The notes below the pieces were generated by a model that saw nothing but the letters and a program-made list of their open reading frames with translations, did not search any database and was not told the DNA's origin. Of a stretch of DNA of 64,000 nt, positions 4,252-56,561 are shown in pieces; the first letter of the stretch is position 1, and every line of letters begins with the position of its first letter. A program made the translations under genes and the position numbers. The stretch is taken from contig CM065646.1 in assembly GCA_033220425.1 (NCBI GenBank), positions 5,773,501 through 5,837,500 on the forward strand, in the 5' to 3' direction. This DNA is from Lepraria neglecta. Lineage: Eukaryota; Ascomycota; Lecanoromycetes; Lecanorales; Stereocaulaceae.

Positions 4252-4545
4252 GATTGCGGTGTGTTGGGTTTGTGTGAGAGAAGGAGCAGGTGAGGCTTCG
4301 ATAGGAGCAATGGCATACTAGGCAATCAGCTTAACGACTCGGCCGAACATTTGTGCCGATTGATCATGGTGTTCTGGATTTCACAAAGCGACCTTGTATC
4401 ATTGCGATGAATCTAGCAACAACTATACATTAGAACACCAATCTGAGGATCGAAAGCGTATTTGTACAGTATGATCGGTTGTGAGAGACGCTGAAGAGTG
4501 CGTCTTGATACTATTGATTATAGGGTTTCGAAAGGCAAACCCTTA

Positions 4546-4729
4546 GAAGGGTTCACCCCCCTGAGTTGTCAGTTGGGGCCTAAAGCCGCTCCTCCGGGGA
4601 CGCGAATTGAGCCCCGAGACGGACTAAATCCGAAGTCTCCGGGGGGCACTTGCTATCCCTTAGACGACCAGCTTTAGGCCCAGTTCAAGGGCTACCCGGG
4701 CGGGTGACAACTCCGGGGGTGAACCCTTC
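4546..4729. mobile_element. Stowaway-like MITE (184 bp) with TA target duplication
   Basis: The two ends are inverted repeats of about 25 bp: GAAGGGTTCACCCCC at 4546 continuing to TTGTCA, and its reverse complement ending at 4729. Each end is directly flanked by TA (4544-4545 and 4730-4731), the duplication made by Tc1/mariner-type transposases. An inner inverted repeat (GGGCCTAAAGC near 4575 and GCTTTAGGCCC near 4671) lets the whole element fold back. It is GC-rich compared with its surroundings and encodes no protein. Confidence 0.8.
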
Positions 4730-4811
4730 TAGCGGGTTTTGAAACGAAGCTAACATAATTTTCTACCCCTGCGAGCCCTTCACTCCAAGCCCTACAACAG
4801 CATTATCTTCA

Positions 4812-6391
4812 TCAGGATACTTTTCCTTCCGCCATACGAGATTCATAAAACGCATTCCACTCAGCCAACAATTATTCGGCTTCCTGGACATCCGTTTGCG
4901 AACCCGTACCATACAAGGCAAAGCGAAACATCTCCCTAGCTAGTCGGAACTCTTCCTGGTACGCAAAATACAAAAAGTCAAACCCGACAGTCTCTTCAAA
5001 TATGCGTTTGAGCTCTTGTTGTTCAGGAGTCGGCGGTATATCTTCCGCATGTCTTTCGTCCTCGTCTTCTTCAGAATTCCACGCCCAGATCCACATAGGC
5101 GGTGCACATCCAACGAACCTAGGAGCGAATGTAGTACTATCCCAATCCAGGATGCCTGTGATCTCCAAATCATCAGGGTTGTCCTTGTCAAAGTCCGCCA
5201 TGATATTGCGAGGAGCCGTGTTGAAATCTAGATGATATAAATAGGTTTCATAACCTAAGCCGCTCATCTGATCCGTGGCCTTCGCCAGGCGGTCATGATG
5301 ATCTCGAAAGGCTATGAGGAAGGGATCGCTCAGCAACTCGAGCGCTCTCCATCGGCCAAACTGTGCACACATGAAATAATATGCGCCCTGTTCGATTGGC
5401 TTTGCCGCAGGTGGTTCCCAATCGGGATCAAATGGACGGACTTGAAGGAACTCCCGATCCCTATATAAGTCCGTTTCAGACTGACGGCCAAAGATCGTCT
5501 CTAGCTCGAAAGGCCGGACAATAAACTTTTGGATACCGTCGTCGACGCTGGCAGCTTCTATACGGCCCGGATAAGGGTGTCTCACGGATTGGAGCTCGAG
5601 CAGAAGCTCTGCGAACTCTTTAGTCATCGTACACTTCTGGCCATGGCTCAAGTTGGGATACCACATGGGTTTCGAATCAGTCTGAAGGTCGCATCCTGAT
5701 ATTCGGCTTTGGATAGCATACCGCTGCTTCAACGGATTATTGCTTGTAAAATCGACAAATTTGACCTCAGGTACTGGTATAGAGGTGTGCTGGCGAACAA
5801 AACGCAGCACGGCAACTTCAAGTTCATGCTGAGAGTCGGCGAAGCGTGGGACTCTAAGGATAAGTTTGGCTGGATCTTTATTCTCTGATTGCGGGACTGT
5901 TATTCCAATAACTCGGTTATAGCCTCCACCGCGCAGACGTTCAATGACGAAATCCCTTGGTGGTGGCGGAAGAAGCTTTGCCCTCGAGCGAGTGCTCTTG
6001 CTTCGATTTAACACGCCGGCAATTCGATTGCGAGGCCCACCCAAAAGACGTTCTGTACGGGATCGGGAGAGGCTTGGGCCTGATGAGGGGGTGGGCGGCC
6101 ACAAGAGGCTGCGCAGTTCTTTGACTTGAAGGCTGAATTGGTCGAAAGGCGTGTGGCTGTACTCCTCCGTCGAGGTACGAGAGGGAATAGTACAGCCAGA
6201 GCAATTGATCTCGTCTCGCTGTCCACAATATCTGCTTCGAGTGAATCACCATTTGACTGGCTAAGAGGCCTTTCCGGGGCATCTACGAATTGAGGTGATG
6301 GAGTCACCGATCCCGCTGAGTGCACACTCAGTGTACTTAGGCCATCCGTTGCATACGCAGTCATGCTTCCTTCCATGTCGTCTGAATCCAT
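4812..6391 (-). pseudogene. APH-family phosphotransferase-like gene, array copy 1 (damaged)
   Basis: The kinase-like fold of the aminoglycoside-phosphotransferase/choline-kinase family is clear: glycine-rich GGGYNRV, a P.PVPEV loop, the catalytic HLDFNTAPRN motif and the metal-binding GILDWD motif. The domain reads without a stop from about 6250 to a TAA at 4874-4872. A Ser-rich N-terminus starting at the ATG at 6391 is in another frame; the shift falls near 6200 and no consensus intron explains it. No in-frame ATG lies before the domain. After the TAA, about 20 more codons (LLAEWNAFYES...) continue to a TGA at 4812 and look like the normal tail. It is the best preserved of three minus-strand copies. 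Family members phosphorylate small molecules or have unknown substrates. It may be partly functional if the frame change is spliced. Confidence 0.75.
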
Positions 6392-7867
6392 GGCTCAGGA
6401 TTTTCGGAAAAGACCGAAAGTGTCCAGCTGACCAAGCCGAACCTTGCTAATCAACTATAGGAAATCAAAAACCCAATACAATTGGAGAGGGATGGTAAAG
6501 GCAACAACAATGAAAATACTGGTGTAGTAAGGAGCAAAAGCAGAGATTCTGAACCGTTTTCGTCTCTGCAGGTTGCCTGCGTCAAAGAAAATGAATGATC
6601 CGAAATGGAAGAAAGAGAGGTACAACTTGGTAAGTGAGTGCAAGGTTCTACATCAAATAGACGACTGATGTACGTTTTCGGTTATGGAAGGTGCGAGTTC
6701 AAGCAGAGGAAAATTCTTCAAGCGAATCTGAGGCCACGTCCAGAAGTTTCGGGCGAGATACTCCAAAAATCCAACACAGGGAGGATGAAGAACTCAGACT
6801 CTTGCGGTCGAACTTGGATTTATTCTCGTTGGAGTACATTTAAGGATGCCGTTCGGACTGGCAGAACATTTCCGATTTCCCTTACTGCGGAGCAACCAAA
6901 TCAAGGCATATCTACCTCACTAACTTATTTGTTCCGGATCTTTTCGTTTGCTCGCAAACACAGGCTCCGGAAATCCTCCCCACTCCATCACTTCCTCTGT
7001 ACTCTTCCGACATTGCTCATGCTAGAGATCACATTAGCAATGTATTTCGTATTTCTTACGCTCATAGGGGCAGGCTTACATCCGTCCTGAATGTGCACTG
7101 CGCACAAGGTTCAGTTTTGAGATGCTTCCATCCGCTGCCACAGGTCTTGCATAAGATTGGGTGATTGGTGCAGTATCCGTGTTGCTCTTCATCTGCGCAG
7201 TTGCTTTTGAGTGATGGGTCCTTGTTTTTTTGGTGCTTGTGGCGGCATTGCGGCGATTTTTGGCTTTTGAGCTGATTACTGTAAGCTGTCGCTGTGAAGA
7301 TCTGTTGCAGCGGAAAGGGTAGTGGTTCTTCAAGGTGTTAGAGGACTCCGAGCCGGAACAGATTCCCTAAAGCCACACTGAGTCAGTGAGATTTCCTTTG
7401 TTTCCGAAAGCATCTACACTCGGAGGGGAATCCCTTGGTGTTCTCATGCACTAGACCTTATCCTTCGTATTGCGAAGCAAATACCATAAGAATTTTCAAT
7501 GCTTTCGCCAGTCCTAACTTTCCTGGATGCAACGGCGCTACTGTTAATGTGGTATATACTGTTCTAACATACAATTGCTGTTCGATCAGCCGATTTGAAC
7601 AAGATCATACCAAAGTGAGGTCACCTGGCAAAGCTGGACTGGACGAAAACTAGTATAGCCCCACAGTGTAAAAGGTCCAGGACCAACGGAGACAGCGGTC
7701 CAATCCAACAAGACTATTCTGACAATATATACGCGTTACATCCTGATCCCGTGCATTCGCCAAACAGATTCCCAAGAATCAACCAAGCATGACAGATCTG
7801 ACTCCTTATAATCAAGCAAATGCCTTCGAAAAATCCAAGAACAGAGCAAGTCTCGACTTATGCAGAT
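6392..7867. other. intergenic stretch between array members, no supported gene
   Basis: About 1.5 kb separating APH copy 1 from the small Cys gene. Open frames here (for example 6638-7090 on the plus strand) show no domain, no codon pattern and no splice support. It probably holds the APH copy 1 promoter and the 3' end of the next gene. Confidence 0.5.
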
Positions 7868-8225
7868 CTACCCTTTCCCTCCCCTCTTACCGCCCTTGTT
7901 ATCGAGTCGATTCTGAACTTTAGCTTCGATCTCTTTCCTATGCGCGTCAAGTGCTGGCGCTTCAGCCCTCTATCGAGGACTTCTTAGTAGAGATCAGACT
8001 CCAAAAGCTGCAAAGACCAACCTCTCTTCGCTTTTTGCACTGCTCACACGGTTTGTGCTTCAGGTGAGCCCAATTATCTTTCACGCATTCTGGATGTGTA
8101 CATTAGACTTGATGTGTCACACAATGTCCGTTACGTTTCTTGCAGGGACCTATCCGGGCATAATGCCTGATTTTTGGACCTGGACAACGGTGGGCTGTCC
8201 CCACCGTTGCTGCGGTATGTTGCAT
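7868..8225 (-). pseudogene. small Cys/His protein with intron, array copy B (in-frame TAA)
   Basis: ATG at 8225 reads 68 codons to 8022, and a 52-nt intron (8021-7970, GTTGGT donor, TACTAAG branch site, GATAG acceptor) leads to a 34-codon exon ending in TAG at 7868. The product would have pairs of Cys and His (a CPGP start, GPCKKRNGHCVTHQ, THPEC, KPCEQCKKRRE) like a small zinc-binding protein, then a helix ending in a GGKRGGKG tail. Codon 41 is TAA (8105-8103), just after CVTHQV. The layout matches the gene at 11,276-11,606: Cys/His exon, intron after the CxxCK block, basic helical exon, Gly/Arg/Lys end. I do not recognise the family. Function is unknown. Confidence 0.6.
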
Positions 8226-8705
8226 CTTGTAGAGGGTTTGGCTGGAAGCGAATTGAAGGGCGCAAGGCTAACAAAAGTGGTCAATGGTGAGGAGCGTATT
8301 GAGAGAAGCAGGTTCGAGAGCCGTAACGACGTGACTGATCGTTGAGCATTGAGTACATGGCTGCCCTTTTGTGAAGTCGTCGTGCTGTCTGGCATAACAA
8401 AGGAGAAGGTGTCTTTGTCTCCTCATGCACTGTATCAGGAAACTATCCTCATCATACCCCGGAGAGCTGCTTTCGAGACGCCATGGCGTAAAAAGGTTTG
8501 ACTGCAACCACTGCCATTGATTATGTCGACAAGACAATCAAAGTGTCTCTTTCTGCCTTTGAGACTGCAAACAGACCCATATTGCACCGATAGCAGAATT
8601 CGAAATGAACGCGGTCTAAATTAAGGCTGTGAGAACTCTATGTCGACTCCGTCACAATGTTACCTCCCTGAGCTTCAGATCCTTCACCAGCCTGTGAGTG
8701 CGATG

Positions 8706-10125
8706 TTAAAGAGCTTTCTCGCTATTGGATACTGTATGATAGGCATAGCGACAAAATTCATCTCCAACAGTATCTTCGAATACTTGCTTGACTTCCTGCA
8801 ATTCAGCATCGGGTGGTTCGTCATCAGCTTTACTTTCGTCTTCTATGGTATCGATATCACCATAGCTCTCGTCTTGCCAAAGCCACCAAGGTGGTGCGCA
8901 AGAGACTTATCTTGGAGCGGAGCAAGCTCTATCCCAGTTTAGGATTCCAGTCACAGACAATGAATCGTCCGATGAAATTTCCACCGTGATGTTCCGGGCC
9001 GCAAGATCGCGATGGCTCAAGCAGTTCTTATTATGTCCTAGACGGTAGAGTCTGTCCATTGCAGATGCAGCATCGGTAAGTCGGTGCATGTGGTCCCTCC
9101 ACAGTATACTTGTTGGTTCAATACGTAGTTCCTTAGCCCTCCAGCGTCCAAGTTGGGCGGCGATAAACCATAGTGTGCTTTTCTCATAATCTTTCCGCAG
9201 GGAATCCTTGGTTGCGGCATCCAGTTTCTTTTGTTTCCATTCCATATCGTAAGGGGATCTGATGTCAAATGGTTCGACAGTAAAGCTCTGAACGCCGTCA
9301 TCATCGGTAGAAGATTCTATGATCCTAGGATGAGGGTGGCTGAGCTTTTGCATCTCCAGGATGATTTGGCCGATCTCTTTGGCGGCAGTGCACCACCCTT
9401 CATGGCTCAAGCCGCTCCGAGCTGCGGTAGAAAGGGGCATCCCTGGAATTCTGCTTTGGATAACATCTGGGCTCTTGAGAGGATTTTTGACCGTATAGTC
9501 GAATGCTTTTACTTCTGGCACGGGGATTTTGGAATGCTGACGGAGATATTGCAGAATAGCAACGTCGCGCTCTAGGCTGGCGTCCCAGATAATACGTGGC
9601 ATCCTGAGCACAAGTCGAACAGGATCCTCGCCATCAGCACTAATGATTGTAATGCCGGTTACTCTATTGTAAGTGCCTCCCGACATACGCTCTATCAGAA
9701 ACTCTTTGGGAGGGCACCTTGCCGCTCGATAGCGACTCAACTTCCTGGAGCTTAAAACGCCCAGGATTCGACTGTTGGAGCCACCTTGGGGTTCCTTGGG
9801 AGATTCGGGCCACAATATGTGGCACAGTTCTTTTACCTGTAGCTTGAATTCTTCGAATGGTGTCTGGTCATGAGCAATAATAGATGTTTCAGATTTCGCG
9901 CGGAAAAAGGAGCTCCTAGATGTAGATGATGACGTTTTCTGGGCATCTGGAACGTGCGTCGAATTGTTTGTCGTGTTGTCCTCCAGATTCTCGTCTTCTA
10001 TAGTACCGTTTGGTGAGGCTGATGCTATGTCTGGGTTGCTGGGAGATGGTTTTTGTTCGTCTGTAGATTGAGGTAATGCGTTGACCGGGTTTTTGGTAGA
10101 GATTGTCTTTATCTCTGAATCTCAT
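8706..10125 (-). pseudogene. APH-family phosphotransferase-like gene, array copy 2 (damaged)
   Basis: The domain reads openly from about 10,120 down to a TAA at 8909-8907. It contains FEEFKLQVKELC, GGTYNRV, IPVPEVKAFDY, HRDLAARN (the catalytic loop) and GILNWD, where the usual metal-binding Asp of GILDWD is Asn. The TAA sits where the sister copies have Phe, before the conserved GCAPP block. Reading on in the same frame gives SCAPPWWLW and a further 65 codons of family-like sequence to 8706. The start is also lost: the ATG at 10,125 is in another frame and the domain frame has a stop immediately upstream. The N-terminal region is Ser/Thr/Asn-rich as in the other copies. Confidence 0.82.
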
Positions 10126-10829
10126 GAGGTTGGAATGTTACTGTAGCTTTATCACAAAATTTTGACAATTTTCGGGGTGACTTCTAAAACAATCGGTCAA
10201 AACAAAGGTCTGTGTCTCGTTTCTGCGCGCGGCTGCAGGAGCCTGGAACAAAGAAGGAGGTAAGATAGTTGACAGGACAAAGAAGTCGTCGGTGTGGAAT
10301 TTACGCTTGCTGAGAAACCGCCAGCGCGGCTTCCAAAAAGGGAAGGAACTTCTAGTACCGACGGCTCTTCATTCCAAGCCCACTTCTTTTTCTATTGCTC
10401 TATCATGATTAGCGAGAAATTTACTTCTACGCCATAACGCGCATAGCTCGTCCTAGCATGCGTATGACAAAACAGACTGCAATTACACCGCAATTTTGGC
10501 ACTCTCGAAAATCCTCTGAACGATTGGGATCCACGTTTCCAACTCCTTGCCACCTATAAGAAGCATACCCCCCACTCAGGAAATCTGTATAACTCTGAGG
10601 ATCTGACTGGCCAAGTTCTTATCCTTGCGAGTGCTAGGTATTTGCTTGTCATCTTCAAATTTCGGCCTCAGCGTACCCCACAAAGGAAGTACATTGGAGT
10701 CAAAACACAAAGCCCGTGCCAAACAACATGTCCACCTGCAGGTTTCAGAGTCAGCATGACTCTTCGCAGAAGGCATAAGAACCAGAACAGAAGCCTTGGG
10801 AGTCAGAGATAGGGTACCAAACGCTATCT
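10126..10829. other. intergenic stretch, no supported gene
   Basis: About 700 bases upstream of APH copy 2. No domain, RNA gene or clear repeat was recognised. Confidence 0.45.
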
Positions 10830-11180
10830 AAGAGCTAGACATCCACCCAAAGACGATTCTTAGATATGGTATTCGGCGAATAAAGGGCTGTCTTGGAGTA
10901 GGATGAAGTGAACGAGAAGCTCCCCTGGAGTAGAGCCCGTGCTAGAAGACCATGTCATAAGCGCCGCGGATGGACAGATTGGGAGGTTTTATAAGTCAGG
11001 CAAAGGGCATCAAGTGCTTTTTGAGAGCGTACCTTTCCCCAAAAGACAAGTCTCAGGTGTGGGATCTGGCGAATCAAAGGAGTGCCTTGGAGCAGAATGT
11101 GGTAAAGGAGAAGCTCCCTGAGAGTCATCTGCGCGCCAAAAATCACGTCTCACACGGAGCGAATGGACAGATGGTAAGGC
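10830..11180. repeat. diverged tandem duplication, period about 192 bp
   Basis: Two neighbouring stretches match along most of their length. The first runs from about 10,830 to 10,990 and the second from about 11,022 to 11,180. Shared words include GGCGAAT then AAAGG, CTTGGAG followed by GAGAAGCTCC, and near the end GGATGGACAGAT / GAATGGACAGAT. The spacing is about 192 bases throughout. The copies differ by many substitutions, so the duplication is old. It lies between two array genes and no product is evident. Confidence 0.65.
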
Positions 11181-11275
11181 TCTGACCCCGAACCGAGTGT
11201 CAGAAAGCAGCTACTCAAAGCAAATGATCATCCACTTTCCCAGCGTAGATCCCCTCCCCCAGTGATTTTGCATGT

Positions 11276-11606
11276 TCACTTCCTCCTACCACCACCCCTC
11301 TTCTCCATCAACGCCGCAACTTCAGCAGCACGTTTCTTGCTGTAAGCAAGATCTATTTCTCTCTGCTTAGCCTGAAGGGATATCAATCAGTAATGTTCCG
11401 CGAATTTGTTTACTCGGATGGCTTACATCTTGATCCGCTTTGCATTTGGGACAAGGCTTCTCGTTCATGTGGGATTCGTTGTATTTCTAGCACTTGGTTT
11501 GATGGACGCAGCAGTAGACGTCGTTGGGAGCTTTGCGGCAGTTACCCTCGGATCTCCGGGGGCAGTGGTGCTTGGTCGTCCCCTTTTTTTCCTTCGTGCC
11601 TGTCAT
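11276..11606 (-). pseudogene. small Cys/His protein with intron, array copy A (in-frame TAG)
   Basis: ATG at 11,606 reads 60 codons to 11,427. A 55-nt intron (11,426-11,372, GTAAGC donor, CTGAT branch-like site, CAG acceptor) joins it to a 32-codon exon ending in TGA at 11,276. The exon 1 product has Cys and His pairs (KHHCPRR, GNCRK, YCCVHQTKC, KPCPKCKAD) suggesting a small zinc-binding fold. Exon 2 is a charged helix ending in RGGGRRK. Codon 40 is TAG (11,489-11,487), within the Cys/His region. The splice keeps the frame, so the gene was real. It is a paralogue of the gene at 7,868-8,225; both have one stop at nearly the same place. The family is not one I can name. Confidence 0.6.
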
Positions 11607-12038
11607 TTTGATGATGGAAGATGTAACGAACGAAGCGAAGAGAGTAGTATACGAGGGAGATGTTGACAGGTTTGGTTGGTAAGCTGTGGGTTGTGAGCCG
11701 TCAATTGTGAGTTGTGAGTAGGATTTGAGCTGGGAATTGTGAGTTGCAAAGGACAGGGTCGAGGAACGGAAAGGAAGAAATATAAAGCTTTTCTCTTGTT
11801 GTACAGTAGAAGCAAAGAGCCAACAAGGACGATCAGAAGACGCACTGCGTTTCGGGGTTGCATTCAGAGGTCAGTTGATACCTGTTGGCGCTTTACGTGA
11901 ACAAGATTCCATCCATACAAAGAGCCTGAGACCCAGAGGTTTCACGAACTTCGAAACAAGTAGAGCGACACAAGACCTCAGGTTCGAATTCTAGCAGAAC
12001 ATCATGCTCCATCATTGTACACAGTAATGAAGGCCTAC

Positions 12039-13646
12039 CTATTTGTCCTCCGGAGTACCTCCACTCTCTTGCGCATCTTCATCCTCTTGCCAGTCTTCGT
12101 AGTCCGTAACATCATCATCGTCGATACCCTCAGCTCTCCGGCTTTCCATATAATCTACATAGAGCAATTTCCTTTCAATTTCTTAATCCTGAGCAGCCAG
12201 TTCCTTGTAAAAAGCCTCATTCTCATCATGCTCAATCTCTCTCGGATCTTTGATCAAAGGCATCTCAGGAGCGCGCATCATTGCCCACTCACGTACAATA
12301 TCGTCAATTTCATTCATTTCGTAGTTCGAATTCTTTCCGCGGAGTGCTAAATCAAACATAGTCCTGCCCAGTCGATACTGTGGTCCATACGAGCCCCACA
12401 GCCTCCTCGAACAAGCGTTTCAGTTCCTATTGCTCCAGCGTTGGTGACGTGTTGTCAGCTTCTCGTTCGTCTTCATCCCCTTCACTATTCCAAGCCCATA
12501 GCCACATAGGCGGAGCGCACCCCACAAACTTGGGACCGAAGACAGCGCTATCCCAATCAAGGATGCCCGAAATCGCAGCCGACCCTTCTGGTTGGATGTC
12601 GACCATAACATTGCGAGGAGCTGAATGTAGATCAAGATGACAAAGCCAATATCCATCATCGCCAAGAAAGCCCATGTCATCCATCTGACGTGCCACATTG
12701 GAAATACAATCAAGGTACTTGTCGCCAAGGTCGCCGGGCTCTTCTGAAACCCTCCAGCGGTCGAATTGTGAGACAAAAAAGCCAAGCGTATCGTCGTATT
12801 TGGGTGCAGTCTTGGCAGAACTCTCCCCGTCTAAATCCAACTTGGTGCTGTCTCCGTCTTTCGACCGTTGGCCTACTTCGAAAGGCTTCACAGCAAATAC
12901 TTGGGGAGTATCATCGCTGGCGGAAACATCGATCCGACCTGGAGTTGGACTTTGGATGTATTGCAACGAACGCAAGATTTCCCCAAAATCTCTTGCAACG
13001 GAGCACTTTTGTTGATGCGTAAGAGTCGGCCGGGAATACTCTAATGACTGTAGATCATGTCCTGGTATGCGACTTGGAATGACGTATGGTCTGTTCAGTA
13101 GATTATCTTCGGCGCAGTCAAAAGCCTTGATCTCTGGTACCGGGATTGAGGGGTATTGACGAACGAAGTTGACGATGGCAACTTCACGATCTGCATGGCT
13201 ATCATCATCTCTCGGTACACTTAGCAGAAGTTGTTCCGTTGAATGACTGCTTAGTTTGATCGTTATGCCAATAATCCGGTGGAAAGTGCCGCCTTTAAGA
13301 CGTTCAATGTGGAACTCATTGGGGGAAGATGTCTTGCTGGAATTAGTCCATAACAAATGACACAACTCTTTGACACGAATGCTATACAGCTCTCTTGTTC
13401 ATATCGAATGGTAGAAGTCTGTGATACCAACGAGCTGCAGGATGAGGAAGACCCGCTTGCTGGCTCACCAGCGGAATCTGAGGGTTGATTCGGTGCTGAG
13501 GTATAGTTTTCATCTTTTGGGTCTGGTGCGCTGGCATCCAGCTCTGATAATTGAGCACCGCTAAGGGGATGGCTATCTGACATGATCGGGAATTCTTGAC
13601 GTGGATATTTGTGGTGAAGGGCAGGAACTGAGGACGAGGAGTTCAT
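12039..13646 (-). pseudogene. APH-family phosphotransferase-like gene, array copy 3 (damaged)
   Basis: An N-terminal Ser-rich part opens at ATG 13,646 (or 13,583). Near 13,385 the frame shifts into the domain, which then reads VKELCHLLW, GGTFHRI, the P.IPVPEIKAFD loop, the catalytic CHLDLHSAPRN and GILDWD motifs, and FVGCAPPMWLWAWNSE. A TAG at 12,429-12,427 follows SPTLEQ, where copy 1 has a Gln (EQQELKR). The sequence after it still reads ELKRLFEEAVG. A second shift near 12,390 leads to a tail with YRLGRTMFDLALRG, an acidic region with a TAA at 12,185-12,183, and a final TAG at 12,041-12,039. The full-length family member therefore had a longer acidic C-terminus than copy 1 retains. It is clearly inactive. 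Confidence 0.85.
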
Positions 13647-17137: not shown

Positions 17138-18247
17138 ATGCGTACTCTTCTTGCAAGATGCTCTTTAGCCGCCAATCTTCGTCTCATATTCCTTCTACTA
17201 TTCCTTCTACTATGCCCCATATCACTCCTGACGTCTCCAACTAACCCTGCCAACAAATCCACCCTCTCTACGCAAAACTATGATATCGACTGTTACCCCT
17301 GGACCAGTCATTCCCCCACCCAAACATTACTCCCATGGCACTGTCAAGATGCACTGCTCAAGTTCTTCATCAGCATACCCTCTAGTACGAACGGGCCCAC
17401 CTTCACCAGAGACCCAGGCAAGAGCAACCTACCGGACCACTACCTCGTCCCAAGACAGACAACCTATCAAGAGTGCACAGTGAAATTGGATCTATACCAA
17501 CCCAGAGACGCGGAAATCAATCTGGGATCTTTCTACTACGAGGGGAACAGGATAATAGAGAATTGCGTTGTTAGAGGGGCTGACTTTAACGGCGGCGAGG
17601 TCGTCATGAAGGGGGCAGGGGCGGGACAAGCTATCAACATATATATTGAAAATCCCGGGCCCGAGTCTATTGCGCAAGGCCCCAGGAATATGACTGACTC
17701 AATACATATCAAACATCCGGAGCCTGCAGTCGTTGTGCAAGATCTTGTCAATACGACCGACGCATCGGCCCTCGCTCGCCGAACCTCCCCTGAGGAAAAC
17801 TACTCGCCCCAGTGTTACCTCCGCAGCAGCCACCCACACCTCCTACCTCTAATCCCTTCTCATTGCGAAGCAGCCCTGTACAACTTCAGGGCAAACATAC
17901 CGCCCTCTATCAATCCTATCTTCACCCGCGACGAAAGCAAAGCGAGGCAACTGCCGAACTATTTTCTCGTCCCCATGAAATCGAAAGACGAAGAGTGCAC
18001 GTTAATGGTGGACCTAGCTGCAGGGTCCACACGCATTGATGCGGTGATCGATATTAATGAATTTGTCTCGGTGGGGCATAGGATTATTGATCAGTGCGTG
18101 GGTAAAGGGCCGTTTGACGGTGGGCGGATTGCTATGAATGGTGAAGGACCGAACCAGGTTATTATTATACGTTTCCAAAATTCAGGCCTTCGAGATGTTG
18201 GGCAGGATTTTGGAGGTTGGAATGGGTCTTTTGTCGAGTCGCTCTAA
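17138..18247 (+). CDS. secreted protein with two copies of one Cys-containing domain, 369 aa
   Basis: A single uninterrupted frame. Residues about 14-31 are strongly hydrophobic (LRLIFLLLFLLLCPISLL), fitting a signal peptide or anchor. The rest is an internal duplication. Domain 1 (about 50-180) and domain 2 (about 225-355) share, in order, a Cys near the start (DCYPW / QCYLR), an HC..AL.. block (WHCQDALLKF / SHCEAALYNF), F(T)RD, LP(D/N)(H/Y)(Y/F)LVP, an EECTL/QECTV segment before VDL/LDL, RII(E/D)(N/Q)CV, a GG segment followed by MKG or MNG, and a final strand ending in (I/F)(E/Q)N(P/S)G. Four Cys per domain could form two disulfides. The linker holds several possible N-glycosylation sites. 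The family appears in secreted fungal proteins of unknown role; an effector-like function is only a guess. Confidence 0.75.
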   Translation: MRTLLARCSLAANLRLIFLLLFLLLCPISLLTSPTNPANKSTLSTQNYDIDCYPWTSHSPTQTLLPWHCQDALLKFFISIPSSTNGPTFTRDPGKSNLPDHYLVPRQTTYQECTVKLDLYQPRDAEINLGSFYYEGNRIIENCVVRGADFNGGEVVMKGAGAGQAINIYIENPGPESIAQGPRNMTDSIHIKHPEPAVVVQDLVNTTDASALARRTSPEENYSPQCYLRSSHPHLLPLIPSHCEAALYNFRANIPPSINPIFTRDESKARQLPNYFLVPMKSKDEECTLMVDLAAGSTRIDAVIDINEFVSVGHRIIDQCVGKGPFDGGRIAMNGEGPNQVIIIRFQNSGLRDVGQDFGGWNGSFVESL

Positions 18248-18433: not shown

Positions 18434-19834
18434 GTAAAAATTTCTTTGCCGATCTGGGGCGTGTACCATTCAAAACACCAAAAATCCATTATTATCGACC
18501 CTACAGCAAGCTGTACAGCCCCCAGAGGCCCTACAAGCACGACCAAACGAAAGCGCCGAAGCACAGCCAACATCGAGCCCCACGAGCCTAATCACAAGTA
18601 CTCAACCCCTACTAAAGCCAAAGCTCACGGCGCAGTCGAATTTCTAAGCGCCAAAGATCTCCTTAAGAGAAACCGCAATATTAAGCTCCCTATAGAGCTC
18701 CCAACACAGCACGACATCTTCAACTTTTTCGATATCCGGGACTCCGGACGGAACGCCAAGCAGGCAGAGAATCCTACAGATCAGGGCGGTAATACAGCCC
18801 GCCGGACCCACCACCAAAGTACTAAAGAAATATAGAGTCCAAAGGGCAAAGTTAGCCCCCGGGAGATCAAAAAAATAGAGGACATTATGAACGACGGTAA
18901 TATTAGGCACCGGCGCTACCCTGGGCGGAGCTTGCTGCGAAAGCAGGGCTTATTAGGCACAAATAGGTCTATTTTTATATAGTACGTAAAGTAAGCATCA
19001 GAGGTACTATACTTCTATTACCACCGATTTCTTATACTAATTATACATAGTTAATATAGGATCGCGAGTACTATAAATACATTGCTTGCACCAAGAATTG
19101 GCTTACCGGGAATATTATACTGGAGCGCCGTATATTCGGCAGGGATAAGCTCTCCTATAAATGGCTGGACTAGAAAATAGTATACTGGAGCGACAAGATC
19201 TATTTCGGACTAGGCCCGGAAAAGAAGCTATATATTATTCAATACCCCGGCGACCGCCTCTACTCTAACTGTATATAGGAATACGGAGAGTCGCCGGAGT
19301 ACGTTGAAGACCGGAAACTACTATACGCCTAGGCGGCCGTTAGGTAGACTTTTAAAACGCCGCTGATTTAGTATATAACGTCTAATAAGAACAGGAAAAT
19401 ATTTCAGCAGGTCTATATTAACCAATTCCTTAACCCGCACGTTAGGAAATAGATTAAACACGGCGATAAATTCGAACTGGACGAGGACCGGGACTTATGC
19501 CACGGCCCGGAGGAGAATAATAATAAGATACGGCGCTGGAAAGCCCAACATGAGCTTAGATCTTGGTTTAACGCCCCGAAATCACCAGATTTAAGGGTAA
19601 TTAAGACCTGCTTTGGGCCTAAAGAGACGTTACGGGCGCGCGCTGAGGAGGGTTAGCGCGACTATATACCCCAGGAATTTATAAATAAGCAGGTTTTAAC
19701 TATGAAAGACCGGCTGCACGCCTTTTTAGACGGTAACGGGCGAACGACTGGTTATTAATACCGTAAATAGCTGAATGAATGGTGTTTTTGGCGGTGTTGA
19801 GGCTTGCGCCCCAGATCGGCAAAGAAATTTTTAC
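18434..19834 (+). mobile_element. Tc1/mariner-IS630-type DNA transposon, inactivated
   Basis: A 1.4-kb unit bounded by 28-bp perfect inverted repeats: GTAAAAATTTCTTTGCCGAT followed by CTGGGGCG at 18,434-18,461, and its reverse complement at 19,807-19,834. The TA dinucleotides at 18,435-18,436 and 19,832-19,833 fit a TA target duplication. The inside is AT-rich and contains a decayed transposase (separate entry) ending about 50 bases before the right repeat. Both termini are intact while the coding part is heavily mutated, as expected for a RIP-treated copy. Confidence 0.85.
18500..19758 (+). pseudogene. DDE transposase (Tc1/mariner, IS630-like), RIP-type stops
   Basis: In one frame from about 19,080 to the TAA at 19,756-19,758 the sequence reads as an IS630-like DDE transposase: YIACTKNWLTG, VYWSDKIYFG (first catalytic Asp), FELDEDRDLCHG (second), SPDLRVIKTCF (third site), and an end EFINKQ...DGNGRTTGY. 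Seven in-frame stops interrupt it and all are TAG, at places such as WLD-stop-K and HVRK-stop-I where related proteins commonly carry Trp. TGG to TAG is the change expected from CpA to TpA on the other strand. At the third catalytic site the family Glu is Lys. The N-terminal DNA-binding part (about 18,600-18,900, FLSAKDLLKR and SPREIKKIED) is recognisable but more decayed. The start is approximate. Confidence 0.83.
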
Positions 19835-42933: not shown

Positions 42934-43116
42934 TTAGTGCATATGTGGCGGCTTGCATTGTCCGTCCTTGATGGCCTGCTTCATTTGCTCTTCGGTAAAG
43001 AAGCCGGATTTGTAGACAGCCAGCATTGGAAAGAAGTGGGCGCCGAATAGGATGGGTGTCCATGCAACGACTTTGCCGGTAGTCTTGGCAGCGCTGAGGA
43101 TTCGTGAGAACGCCAT
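42934..43116 (-). CDS. tiny single-helix protein, tandem family member A (60 aa)
   Basis: ATG at 43,116 was preferred over an in-frame ATG at 43,209 because the sisters start at the same point (M-x-F-x-R). The sequence is MAFSRILSAAKTTGK, a hydrophobic helix VVAWTPILFGAHFFPMLAVY, then KSGFFTEEQMKQA and a short tail. Together with the genes at 43,610-43,837 and 44,425-44,586 it forms a tandem set sharing M-x-F-x-R-(I/L), a basic residue, one membrane helix containing Pro and ending in A..K, then a G(F/L) and an acidic helix. Size and layout resemble small mitochondrial inner-membrane proteins, but I do not recognise the family. About 170-300 bases upstream lies a block conserved with the sisters. 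Confidence 0.68.
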   Translation of the reverse strand: MAFSRILSAAKTTGKVVAWTPILFGAHFFPMLAVYKSGFFTEEQMKQAIKDGQCKPPHMH

Positions 43117-43283
43117 GCTGGAGTTGTTTGAAGACTGGTGAATGTTTGGTTGAATGTATGCGTTTCTGGTAGATCGAGGATCGAGGATTGGAGGAGGTTT
43201 GGTGATCATTCAACAGAAAGAAGCAAGAAGAATTGGAAACTTATACCTTTGCCTGCCCATGTGATGGGTGTTGTGTCGGCAAT

Positions 43284-43412
43284 TTGTGTTATGTGAAGAG
43301 TGTTGCACGGCGGCTATCTACGTGCTGTGTGATGGCTTCATTGCCCGACTTTGTTAGCCGCCTAAAAAAGTGTTGAAACGGAGCTTTGATACGTTTCAAG
43401 TGGAAAGTATGT
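43284..43412 (-). promoter_or_regulatory. conserved upstream block of tandem member A
   Basis: Plus-strand words GCTATCT, GTGCTGTGT, CTTCATTGCCCGACTTTGTT and TTCAAGTGG..AGTATGTG recur in the same order upstream of member B (44,012-44,143). A part (ACTGTGTCATAACTTCATTG, then TCCGACTT) lies upstream of member C. It is too far from the start codon to be coding and is better conserved than the rest of the spacer. Confidence 0.6.
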
Positions 43413-43609
43413 GAATTTTATGCGAGAGTGGCGGATTTCAATGGCATTCAATGCCGCCACACTATTGAAGATAAGGTATTATCATGGGACCTGGTTTGTT
43501 GACGATTTGGCTAACGTGCTATGGGTTGTATTTTTCACCTGATAAAGGCAGCAAGACTCAAACGCACTAAATCAGGAACTCTAAACTTCCCTGCTGATAC
43601 TTGATATGA

Positions 43610-43837
43610 TCAGAACACGAACCCCAAATCCCATCCACGTGGCTCTGGTTGACCGTCCTTGCCGCGCTGCAGCTCCTCTTCGCGAAGGTTACCTGCATAT
43701 TTGGAGTCCTCATCTTTCAGGAGGCCTGTCTTCTGAAGCGCCACGACGCTTCCGACGTTCGCGGCAAAGACAGAGGGCATGAAAATGACGGCTTTGCTGA
43801 TGTGTTTGGCGGCGCCGATGAGACGTGGGAACCACAT
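43610..43837 (-). CDS. tiny single-helix protein, tandem family member B (75 aa)
   Basis: ATG at 43,837: MWFPRLIGAAKHISK, then a hydrophobic helix AVIFMPSVFAANVGSVVAL, QKTGLLKDEDSKYAG and a charged tail ending in WDLGFVF. The tail is about 20 residues longer than in the sisters. It aligns with member A over the first 45 residues and with member C even better (FPRL, then IANVG/AANVG, then VALQK.GL / MALRKIGL). No intron or stop is present, so at least this copy is likely expressed. Function unknown; membrane location is inferred from the helix. Confidence 0.68.
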   Translation of the reverse strand: MWFPRLIGAAKHISKAVIFMPSVFAANVGSVVALQKTGLLKDEDSKYAGNLREEELQRGKDGQPEPRGWDLGFVF

Positions 43838-44011
43838 GGTACTGTTCTGATCTTCTGGTGGAGTTTCTGTTTCTTTAGTTGACAGAGCTCGAATGTGGTG
43901 GATTGAAGATTGAGGGGGTGATCGGTGATGGATAATGATGAAAGAGGAAGGGTAGGTAGAGGGTGTGTGGGTATATCCAAGTCTTTGCAGTGTTGACGGT
44001 TGTTTAGGACC

Positions 44012-44143
44012 ATGTGTTAAGTAGAGAGTGTTGAGATATTGCTATCTTTGTGCTGTGTTGTGGATTTATTGTCTGGCTCTGTTGTATAACAAGAGAGTAT
44101 TGGCTTTGGACATTGTTACTTTTACTTCAAGTGGTAAGCATGT
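44012..44143 (-). promoter_or_regulatory. conserved upstream block of tandem member B
   Basis: Plus-strand sequence GTGTTAAGTAGAGAGTGTTG, then GCTATCTTTGTGCTGTGTTG, TTTATTGTCTGGCTCTGTTG and TTCAAGTGGTAAGCATGTGA parallels the block at 43,284-43,412 at equal distance from the start codon. It is probably a shared promoter duplicated with the genes. Confidence 0.6.
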
Positions 44144-44424
44144 GAGATGCTCTGTTGCCTCACCATTACATGGACAGTCTATTGAGAGAAGTGTGTTGAG
44201 CATTTTGCAAGCATCTTTGATTTCATTATTGACTGCATAATGCTAATAGAAGAGCAAGGACTAGAGCACTGTATTAAAGTCCTATTACTGCCACGCTTGT
44301 GCATACACCCTCCGAGCCAGCCATCGTATGCTTCTTGAAAGACCAAAAGGAGACAACCACAGCCTCCAATCCTCCAACATCCTGACCGAGGGCTGTGAAT
44401 CTTGTGTGTTGGGGAGGCACGTGC

Positions 44425-44586
44425 TTAGTGCTTGCGAGGTGACTTATGGAACTTCTCAAGATCCTTGTCGCTCATAAGACCTATCTTGCGGAGGGCCATG
44501 ACAGTTCCAACATTTGCAATGACGATGAGGGGTATAATAGCGACTCCTTTGAGGATTGAAACACCGGAAAGACGTGGGAACGGCAT
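44425..44586 (-). CDS. tiny single-helix protein, tandem family member C (53 aa)
   Basis: ATG at 44,586 gives MPFPRLSGVSILKG, a helix VAIIPLIVIANVGTVMAL, then RKIGLMSDKDLEKFHKS and a basic end. An in-frame ATG much further up (44,847) exists, but the sequence before 44,586 has no likeness to the sisters and is low in coding character, so the short start was chosen. The match to member B around the helix (ANVG.V.AL.K.GL) is the clearest in the set. Confidence 0.66.
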   Translation of the reverse strand: MPFPRLSGVSILKGVAIIPLIVIANVGTVMALRKIGLMSDKDLEKFHKSPRKH

Positions 44587-44790
44587 TTTGTTCGTGTATC
44601 TGTGTCGTTGAAGGTTTTTGGATTGGTGGTACTCGTATGAAGTGGATTGAAGGTTGGAGATATTTTTTTTGGGTGACCCAATGTGTTGGCCGTGGTGGTG
44701 GTCTGAGGTTGATGTGGAGATTGCGAAGATGAAGAAATTTGAAAGACAAAAGGTATATTTATAGTTTTTCCGTCGCTGTATCAACTGTTG

Positions 44791-44900
44791 TGTAACAGAA
44801 AAAGTGTTGTGCCAAAAGTGTCCAAACGTTATTCTACACTGTGTCATAACTTCATTGTCCGACTTGTCACTGTGTTATCCTCAGAGTGACAAGCACGTTA
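44791..44900 (-). promoter_or_regulatory. upstream block of tandem member C, partly conserved
   Basis: The plus-strand words GTGTAACAGAAAAAGTGTTG, CACTGTGTCATAACTTCATT, GTCCGACTTGTCACTG and GTGACAAGCACGT correspond in order to parts of the blocks upstream of members A and B, with more divergence. It also lies close to the 3' end of the proline dehydrogenase gene. Confidence 0.5.
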
Positions 44901-55740: not shown

Positions 55741-56561
55741 GGCATCTCGTAGCGTCGTTCGCGCTATTGCTTCGTGCCGAATGAAGTTGAGAGGGTTCAA
55801 AGGAGGAGAGACGAGATCTCAGGGCTCGATGCAAGGATAGCAGTTAATTTACAACAGGGAGAACCTTGGTATAGCGAATTCTCGCCTACTATTGGGTGAT
55901 GAAGTGGCAATAAGTATTGCAAGATGCTCGCAAAGTATGCTGTCTACTTCCTCTTTCAGCGTCCAGGCGAGCTGGCCTCCGCTCAATTGGAGTTTACGGG
56001 CCGAGACCGTGTTACTCTATTGCTTGTTGACAAAGAGAAGCCTTACGCGCTAAGTGTAAGGTCCTATTACCTAAGTAAAGCTCGAGAGAGGTAAAGGCTA
56101 AGACTGACAGGGAAGCGCAAAGTTCGTGCTCCTCTTTCTGGCTTAATATAGGAACGTCAAAATTGGAGGGAAACTACTGACGAAGCGCGTCGAGCTCCCT
56201 GCTAGAACGAGCGGGGAGTTGAAGAGCGTGATGTCGAACGGTTGCAGCTCAAAGGCCTTTGTGAAGTGTATTTTCGCCACATGACCTAGTACTGTTCTTG
56301 TGATTTGGGCCTGGGGTGGTCACTGGAGACGAGTGGTTCGAGACGGCCGGGGATGGGCTGGGGGCTGCTGGTAGAACAGGTTTTGAAGATTTGGGCTTGA
56401 TTGGGCTTGCGAGGGCGACGTGTCTGCTCGGGAGGCGGTATCGCGTTGAGTTGAAGTCCAAAGACGCTTCTTCGCTTAATTCACGCAGCGACATCCCATT
56501 CCAGCTGACACCGGCATACCGAGCAGACGTGAATTGGCAAGAAGATGGGCACACCTAGGGT

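Follow-up and report, generated by a model that had tools for sequence, protein, structure and literature searches.

A damaged array of interleaved APH-like and small Cys/His genes in Lepraria neglecta, probably the remains of an old duplicated cluster

Two unrelated gene families lie interleaved on one strand of the Lepraria neglecta genome (42.0 Mb, 11 contigs), and every member of the array that they form is damaged. Within the window, by which we mean the whole 64,000-nucleotide stretch analysed (bases 5,773,501-5,837,500 of contig C1), the array occupies 4.8-13.65 kb and holds three diverged, disabled copies of an APH-like (PF01636) gene on the minus strand together with three small Cys/His genes, A, B and C; along the direction of transcription the order is APH3-A-APH2-B-C-APH1. 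We think it likely that this array is what remains of an ancient duplicated cluster of kinase and zinc-protein genes, functional over a long period and decayed only late. Such a local cluster of two unrelated families would have been duplicated and maintained by selection for most of its history, before ordinary point mutations and indels destroyed its genes. We do not expect it to have a function today.

An earlier note on this DNA had described APH-like and small Cys genes alternating in a tandem array, all on one strand, about 3.5 kb apart and all damaged. Much of that description agrees with our results: APH copies and small genes are all on the minus strand, the 5' ends of the APH copies (an ATG at 6391 and at 13646, and an open-frame edge at ~10121 where no ATG was found) are spaced at 3.5-3.7 kb, and stops or frame changes interrupt APH1, APH2, APH3, A, B and C. 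Both families are real and interleaved, the one by its PF01636 matches and the other by leave-one-out profile detection, and the repeated splice pattern is seen in A and B, which share their splice donor position. The interleaving stands but a strict alternation does not; A and B are real, but the small genes number three rather than two, C having been missed between APH2 and APH1.

The least damaged of the three array pseudogenes is APH1 (4812-6391), which is open from 4875 to 6245 and carries an N-terminal frame change at ~6190-6245 and a TAA at 4872-4874, 19 codons upstream of its presumed end. APH2 (8638-10121) lacks an in-frame ATG, has a TAA at 8907-8909 and shows two frame changes near its C-terminus, past ~8740. 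APH3 (12039-13646) is interrupted by frame changes at ~13390 and ~12395 and by two stops, a TAG at 12427-12429 and, further on, a TAA; its presumed end is at 12039-12041. Among the small genes, in-frame stops occur in A, B and a fourth member, D, found on another contig, and a frame change in C. Frame changes were called by eye, from three-frame views set against the other copies.

Several of these lesions are frame changes, which leaves some room for the idea that the genes are intact and only look broken through faults of sequencing or assembly. We nevertheless hold error to be an unlikely cause, and assign it a very small probability: the same window contains long open genes (a Pro_dh frame of 516 aa, a Nup85 frame of 862 aa and an ABC transporter of 445 aa; a fungal transcription factor domain match also occurs, with a score under its cut-off), each array APH copy bears both nonsense and frame lesions, and copies of the subfamily on other contigs are damaged too. 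An enolase elsewhere in the genome has 7rhv as its best match among solved structures; with the spliced genes and the transcription factor domain, it points to a filamentous ascomycete.

The three array copies score 33.4, 42.7 and 42.9 bits against PF01636, whose curated cut-off is 23.2, and they match one another at E 4e-81 to 2e-52 in a six-frame blastp self-comparison of the whole window. We take them to encode an APH-fold kinase-like protein with a low-complexity N-terminus, the fold being predicted from the Pfam match. The APH catalytic motif is H-x-D-x4-N plus a metal-binding Asp. Its spacing is kept in APH2 and in APH4, a copy on another contig, and widened by two extra residues in APH1 and APH3; the second, metal-binding Asp, which lies in I-L-D-W of the other copies, is an Asn in APH2, and in APH5 it is the catalytic Asp that is replaced by Asn. 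With APH1 as query, a search of solved structures yielded a single match, 9fsg, which was weak (E 0.019), and AlphaFold returned no usable fold for either APH1 (with six pieces; pLDDT 36.9) or the small finger (pLDDT 50.2). Aminoglycoside and macrolide phosphotransferases share the broad family with the array genes, but signs of a resistance enzyme are absent from the array: the best scores against their NCBIfam models were 15.7, 12.9 and 10.5 bits, with cut-offs of 600, 620 and 500. A padloc search gave no match.

Searching the genome with APH1 returned nine matches, namely seven subfamily copies (the one on C7 as two matches) and one distant relative. An APH4 piece returned 13, comprising the identical seven copies, of which APH5 and APH6 were each hit in one further piece, plus four lower-scoring matches to other genes, and a C-terminal APH5 piece returned seven, representing six of the seven copies; the missing one was APH6, for which no C-terminal part was found. 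All seven copies are broken or truncated. Outside the array, a TAG interrupts APH4 and a TGA the partial copy APH6, APH5 has a frame change in addition to its catalytic substitution, while only the C-terminal half of APH7 was found. Among the remaining 27 of 32 PF01636 matches in the genome, the matched stretch is stop-free in 21 and stop-bearing in six, a count in which introns were read through and frame changes went uncounted. In compared fungi, the number of PF01636 family members per genome ranges from 33 to 258 (PMC4751544). The APH part of the array is thus ordinary for fungi, where, as that study describes, the large size of the family is already known, and the present subfamily resembles the reported expansions in its above-cut-off Pfam match and its multiple copies (PMC4751544). 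It differs from them in that its seven members are all broken or truncated and in part interleaved with a small Cys/His gene.

The small genes share the ligand order (C)...C...[YHC]C-x2-H...C...H-x5-C-x2-C. Gene A (11276-11606, minus) starts at an ATG at 11606, has an in-frame TAG at 11487-11489 and an intron with a GTAAGC donor, and its second exon has a basic, Gly/Arg-rich end (stop 11276-11278). The second exon of gene B (7868-8225, minus; ATG at 8225, in-frame TAA at 8103-8105) likewise has a basic end, here rich in Gly, Lys and Arg (stop 7868-7870). Gene C (7074-7248, minus) has its ATG at 7248, an open finger domain at 7074-7226, a frame change separating the two and a terminal splice donor, and it is without the first Cys in its ATG frame. 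The donor falls at an equal position in all three, reading GTAAGC in A and C and GTTGGT in B. The pattern C...C...C-x2-H followed by C...H...C-x2-C suggests that the product, a small basic protein, is probably a ligand of two zinc ions.

Membership of this family was examined with profiles built from three of the four members and scanned over 242,206 bases in 19 stretches, with eight shuffled copies as control. In each case the missing fourth member was the best new match (A 15.0, B 14.2, C 17.9 and D 10.8 bits), against a background in which the next real match reached at most 5.1 bits and the best shuffled match 9.0; the margin was narrowest for D. None of the small-family pieces reached the cut-off of any Pfam family; gene C came closest, scoring 18.5 bits with Ribosomal_L37e (E 0.0022, cut-off 27.6). 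WRC and zf-C3Hc3H are C-C-C-H zinc motifs. The C...C...C-x2-H ligand spacing of A and B is similar to that of such motifs, whereas C retains only the last part and D carries Arg in place of His, and neither WRC nor zf-C3Hc3H matched any of five pieces at E up to 10. Genome-wide, queries A and D found only themselves, whereas B also recovered C, C also recovered B, and each of these two gave one additional, unconfirmed match. Two weak matches of small-gene queries, on C6 (E 0.155) and C4 (E 0.18), were rejected, the former with a profile score of -2.1 bits and the latter being absent among the profile matches listed down to 1.2 bits. Unlinked copies may exist, the genome-wide search being weak. 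When viral contigs were scanned with the alignment of the small genes, there were 30 pattern matches, none of them a relative.

The divergence of the APH copies bears on the age of the cluster. In 20 of the 21 copy pairs (APH6-APH7 was left out for having too few codons), the proportion of synonymous differences, pS, is 0.70-0.88 and that of nonsynonymous differences, pN, 0.27-0.44; pS lies beyond correction in 17 pairs and gives a dS of 2.0-2.2 in three. Synonymous sites are therefore saturated, or nearly so, between all compared copy pairs. Third codon positions are the most divergent in every pair compared. Because pS is high, pN lower and third positions most divergent, the APH copies must have separated long ago and under constraint; the codon pattern records long selection on the APH family, and we assume the same for the small family. 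The few lesions in each copy suggest that the APH copies broke late. In a query-anchored tree on APH1 the three array copies are not recovered as a clade, backbone support being 36-61, and the tree groups APH4 with APH6 and APH7 at a support of 95.

If the array was treated as a tandem repeat, repeat-induced point mutation (RIP) would be another route to the stops, and one of them has the appearance expected: the TAG of APH3 aligns with a Gln of APH1, as a C-to-T change would give, a correspondence seen for that stop only. The array otherwise looks unlike a RIP-damaged repeat, for which a positive composite index would be expected. The index is negative in 11 of 11 array parts (-0.25 to -1.53) and stands at -0.68 for the whole array as against -0.60 for the window from 14 to 64 kb; moreover, DNA identity between copies is mostly 58-60% (reaching 71-75% in local pieces), and frame changes are not a product of RIP. 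We regard RIP as a highly improbable source of the stops. Across the window the index is positive in 11 of 254 half-kilobase windows, and the best six of these 11 lie within 18501-19750 and 55751-56500, none of them in the array.

An equally slight probability attaches to the proposal that these are live genes whose stops are read through by A-to-I RNA editing, in the manner of the PUK1-like edited 'pseudogenes' described in Fusarium and Neurospora (PMC4817773). Some of the stops are indeed TAG, but a gene of the PUK1 type would be interrupted by UAG only, reading as Trp, and here TAA, TGA and frame changes are present as well; moreover, where APH3 and APH4 have their TAG, APH1 has Gln and Asp respectively, neither of them Trp. 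Late decay of a formerly constrained cluster remains our preferred account of the lesions.

Whether the two families form a real pair is a separate question. The earlier note had proposed that one APH-like gene plus one small gene was duplicated as a block, and the distances from the APH3 end to the start of A (432 bp) and from the APH2 end to the start of B (412 bp) speak for a repeated unit, with C standing as an extra. The array is not a simple repeated pair, because the interval from APH2 to APH1 holds two small genes, B and C. The pairing is further favoured by D, a decayed fourth small gene on contig C3, which lies ~0.7 kb before APH4, on the opposite strand and head to head with it; APH4 belongs to the same APH subfamily on another contig than the array. 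The profile score of D is 11.6 bits, a value reached by none of 300 shuffles (best 7.5). Against the note's reading stand the extra gene C, the head-to-head arrangement of D, unlike spacers, a tree that leaves the array copies unresolved as a clade, and the lack of a small gene at three of the four other subfamily loci. The spacer comparison put forward in the earlier note was carried out by self-comparison, and the spacers between array genes have no clear mutual similarity: apart from APH-to-APH matches it gave an 18-base match between B and C (E 0.49) and two gene-spacer matches at chance level (E 0.57 and 0.84). This comparison cannot separate block duplication from independent insertion, because with sites saturated any likeness between duplicated spacers would have vanished. 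Duplication of an APH gene and a small gene as a block is plausible.

The association could also reflect history alone, a shared decaying neighbourhood produced by duplication of ancestral neighbours or by chance and with no common function, and we give this reading a probability somewhat short of one half. It accords with the absence of a small gene at three of the four other subfamily loci (C7, a second one on C3, and C2, with ~30 kb covered around each and no small gene within ~15 kb), with the head-to-head order and unlike spacers already described, and with a modest position test, in which the chance of D falling near one of the four APH loci is ~5% (4 x ~3.2 kb / ~233 kb) in DNA that was chosen around APH loci and is non-random. 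On the other side, the APH copy next to D is deeply diverged and lies on a contig other than that of the array, so that any link would be old, and genome-wide the chance would be far below 5% if small genes are as rare as protein searches suggest, although that rarity is poorly measured. No intact pair of APH-like and small gene was found at the loci examined in this genome. A functional link between the families, which the earlier note also proposed, is to our minds an evenly balanced proposition.

A MITE-like short element of ~0.2 kb, with 24-base inverted ends that are 88% complementary, lies at 4537-4738, 73 bp past the APH1 end. It occurs in at least 20 other places in the genome, one of which is 0.5 kb past the APH4 end (C3:364713-364900), so that both pair-bearing loci carry it; the chance of this, calculated post hoc, is 20 x 4 x 3.5 kb / 42 Mb = 0.007. 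The two copies are 85% alike, far above the likeness of the APH genes, and they were therefore probably inserted later and independently.

Other features of the window are recorded here in their own right. The spacer between APH2 and gene A contains a 50-base direct repeat (76%) at 10882-10931 and 11076-11125, 194 bases apart. On the minus strand at 42937-44874, the frame 43613-44041 resembles its two neighbours, with 50% likeness across 44 residues to one and 33% across 72 to the other, and may mark a second small paralogous cluster; a scan of two of the three frames at E up to 0.01 gave nothing in Pfam. A plus-strand frame of 369 residues at 17138-18247 has a secreted-looking module that appears by eye to be repeated twice; Pfam gave nothing for it at E up to 1. 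ARAGORN on the whole window and Rfam on 4-16 kb gave no matches.

How the old cluster might have worked is a matter for more cautious suggestion. As the likeliest former mechanism, the kinase may have modified the small nucleic-acid-binding-like protein encoded beside it or worked jointly with that protein, a proposal that we offer tentatively and consider rather doubtful. More speculative still would be an undescribed fungal two-gene system of an APH-fold kinase and a dedicated two-zinc small protein, for example one in which the kinase modifies the small protein, or a selfish Spok-like pair built on a kinase, which multiplied, spread to several chromosomes and became extinct in this lineage; we think it improbable. 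Resistance conferred by the Spok spore killers requires a kinase domain and a cysteine-rich domain together (PMC6660213), and this pairing in Podospora resembles the two families of the array. Spok, however, is one gene whose single protein unites nuclease, cysteine-rich and kinase domains, whereas here the genes are separate and the kinase pieces scanned show APH and no nuclease match in Pfam. Among the titles and abstract openings listed in literature searches, none concerned an APH-like gene paired with such a small Cys/His gene.

If the pairing were a matter of shared history alone, the array would be no more than an unremarkable collection of dead tandem duplicates. The loss of a whole family from one genome would point to a dispensable or contested function, as for genes of genomic conflict. 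Should an intact pairing prove to be conserved elsewhere, it would provide a genetic partner and a testable function for one branch of the large fungal APH-like family.
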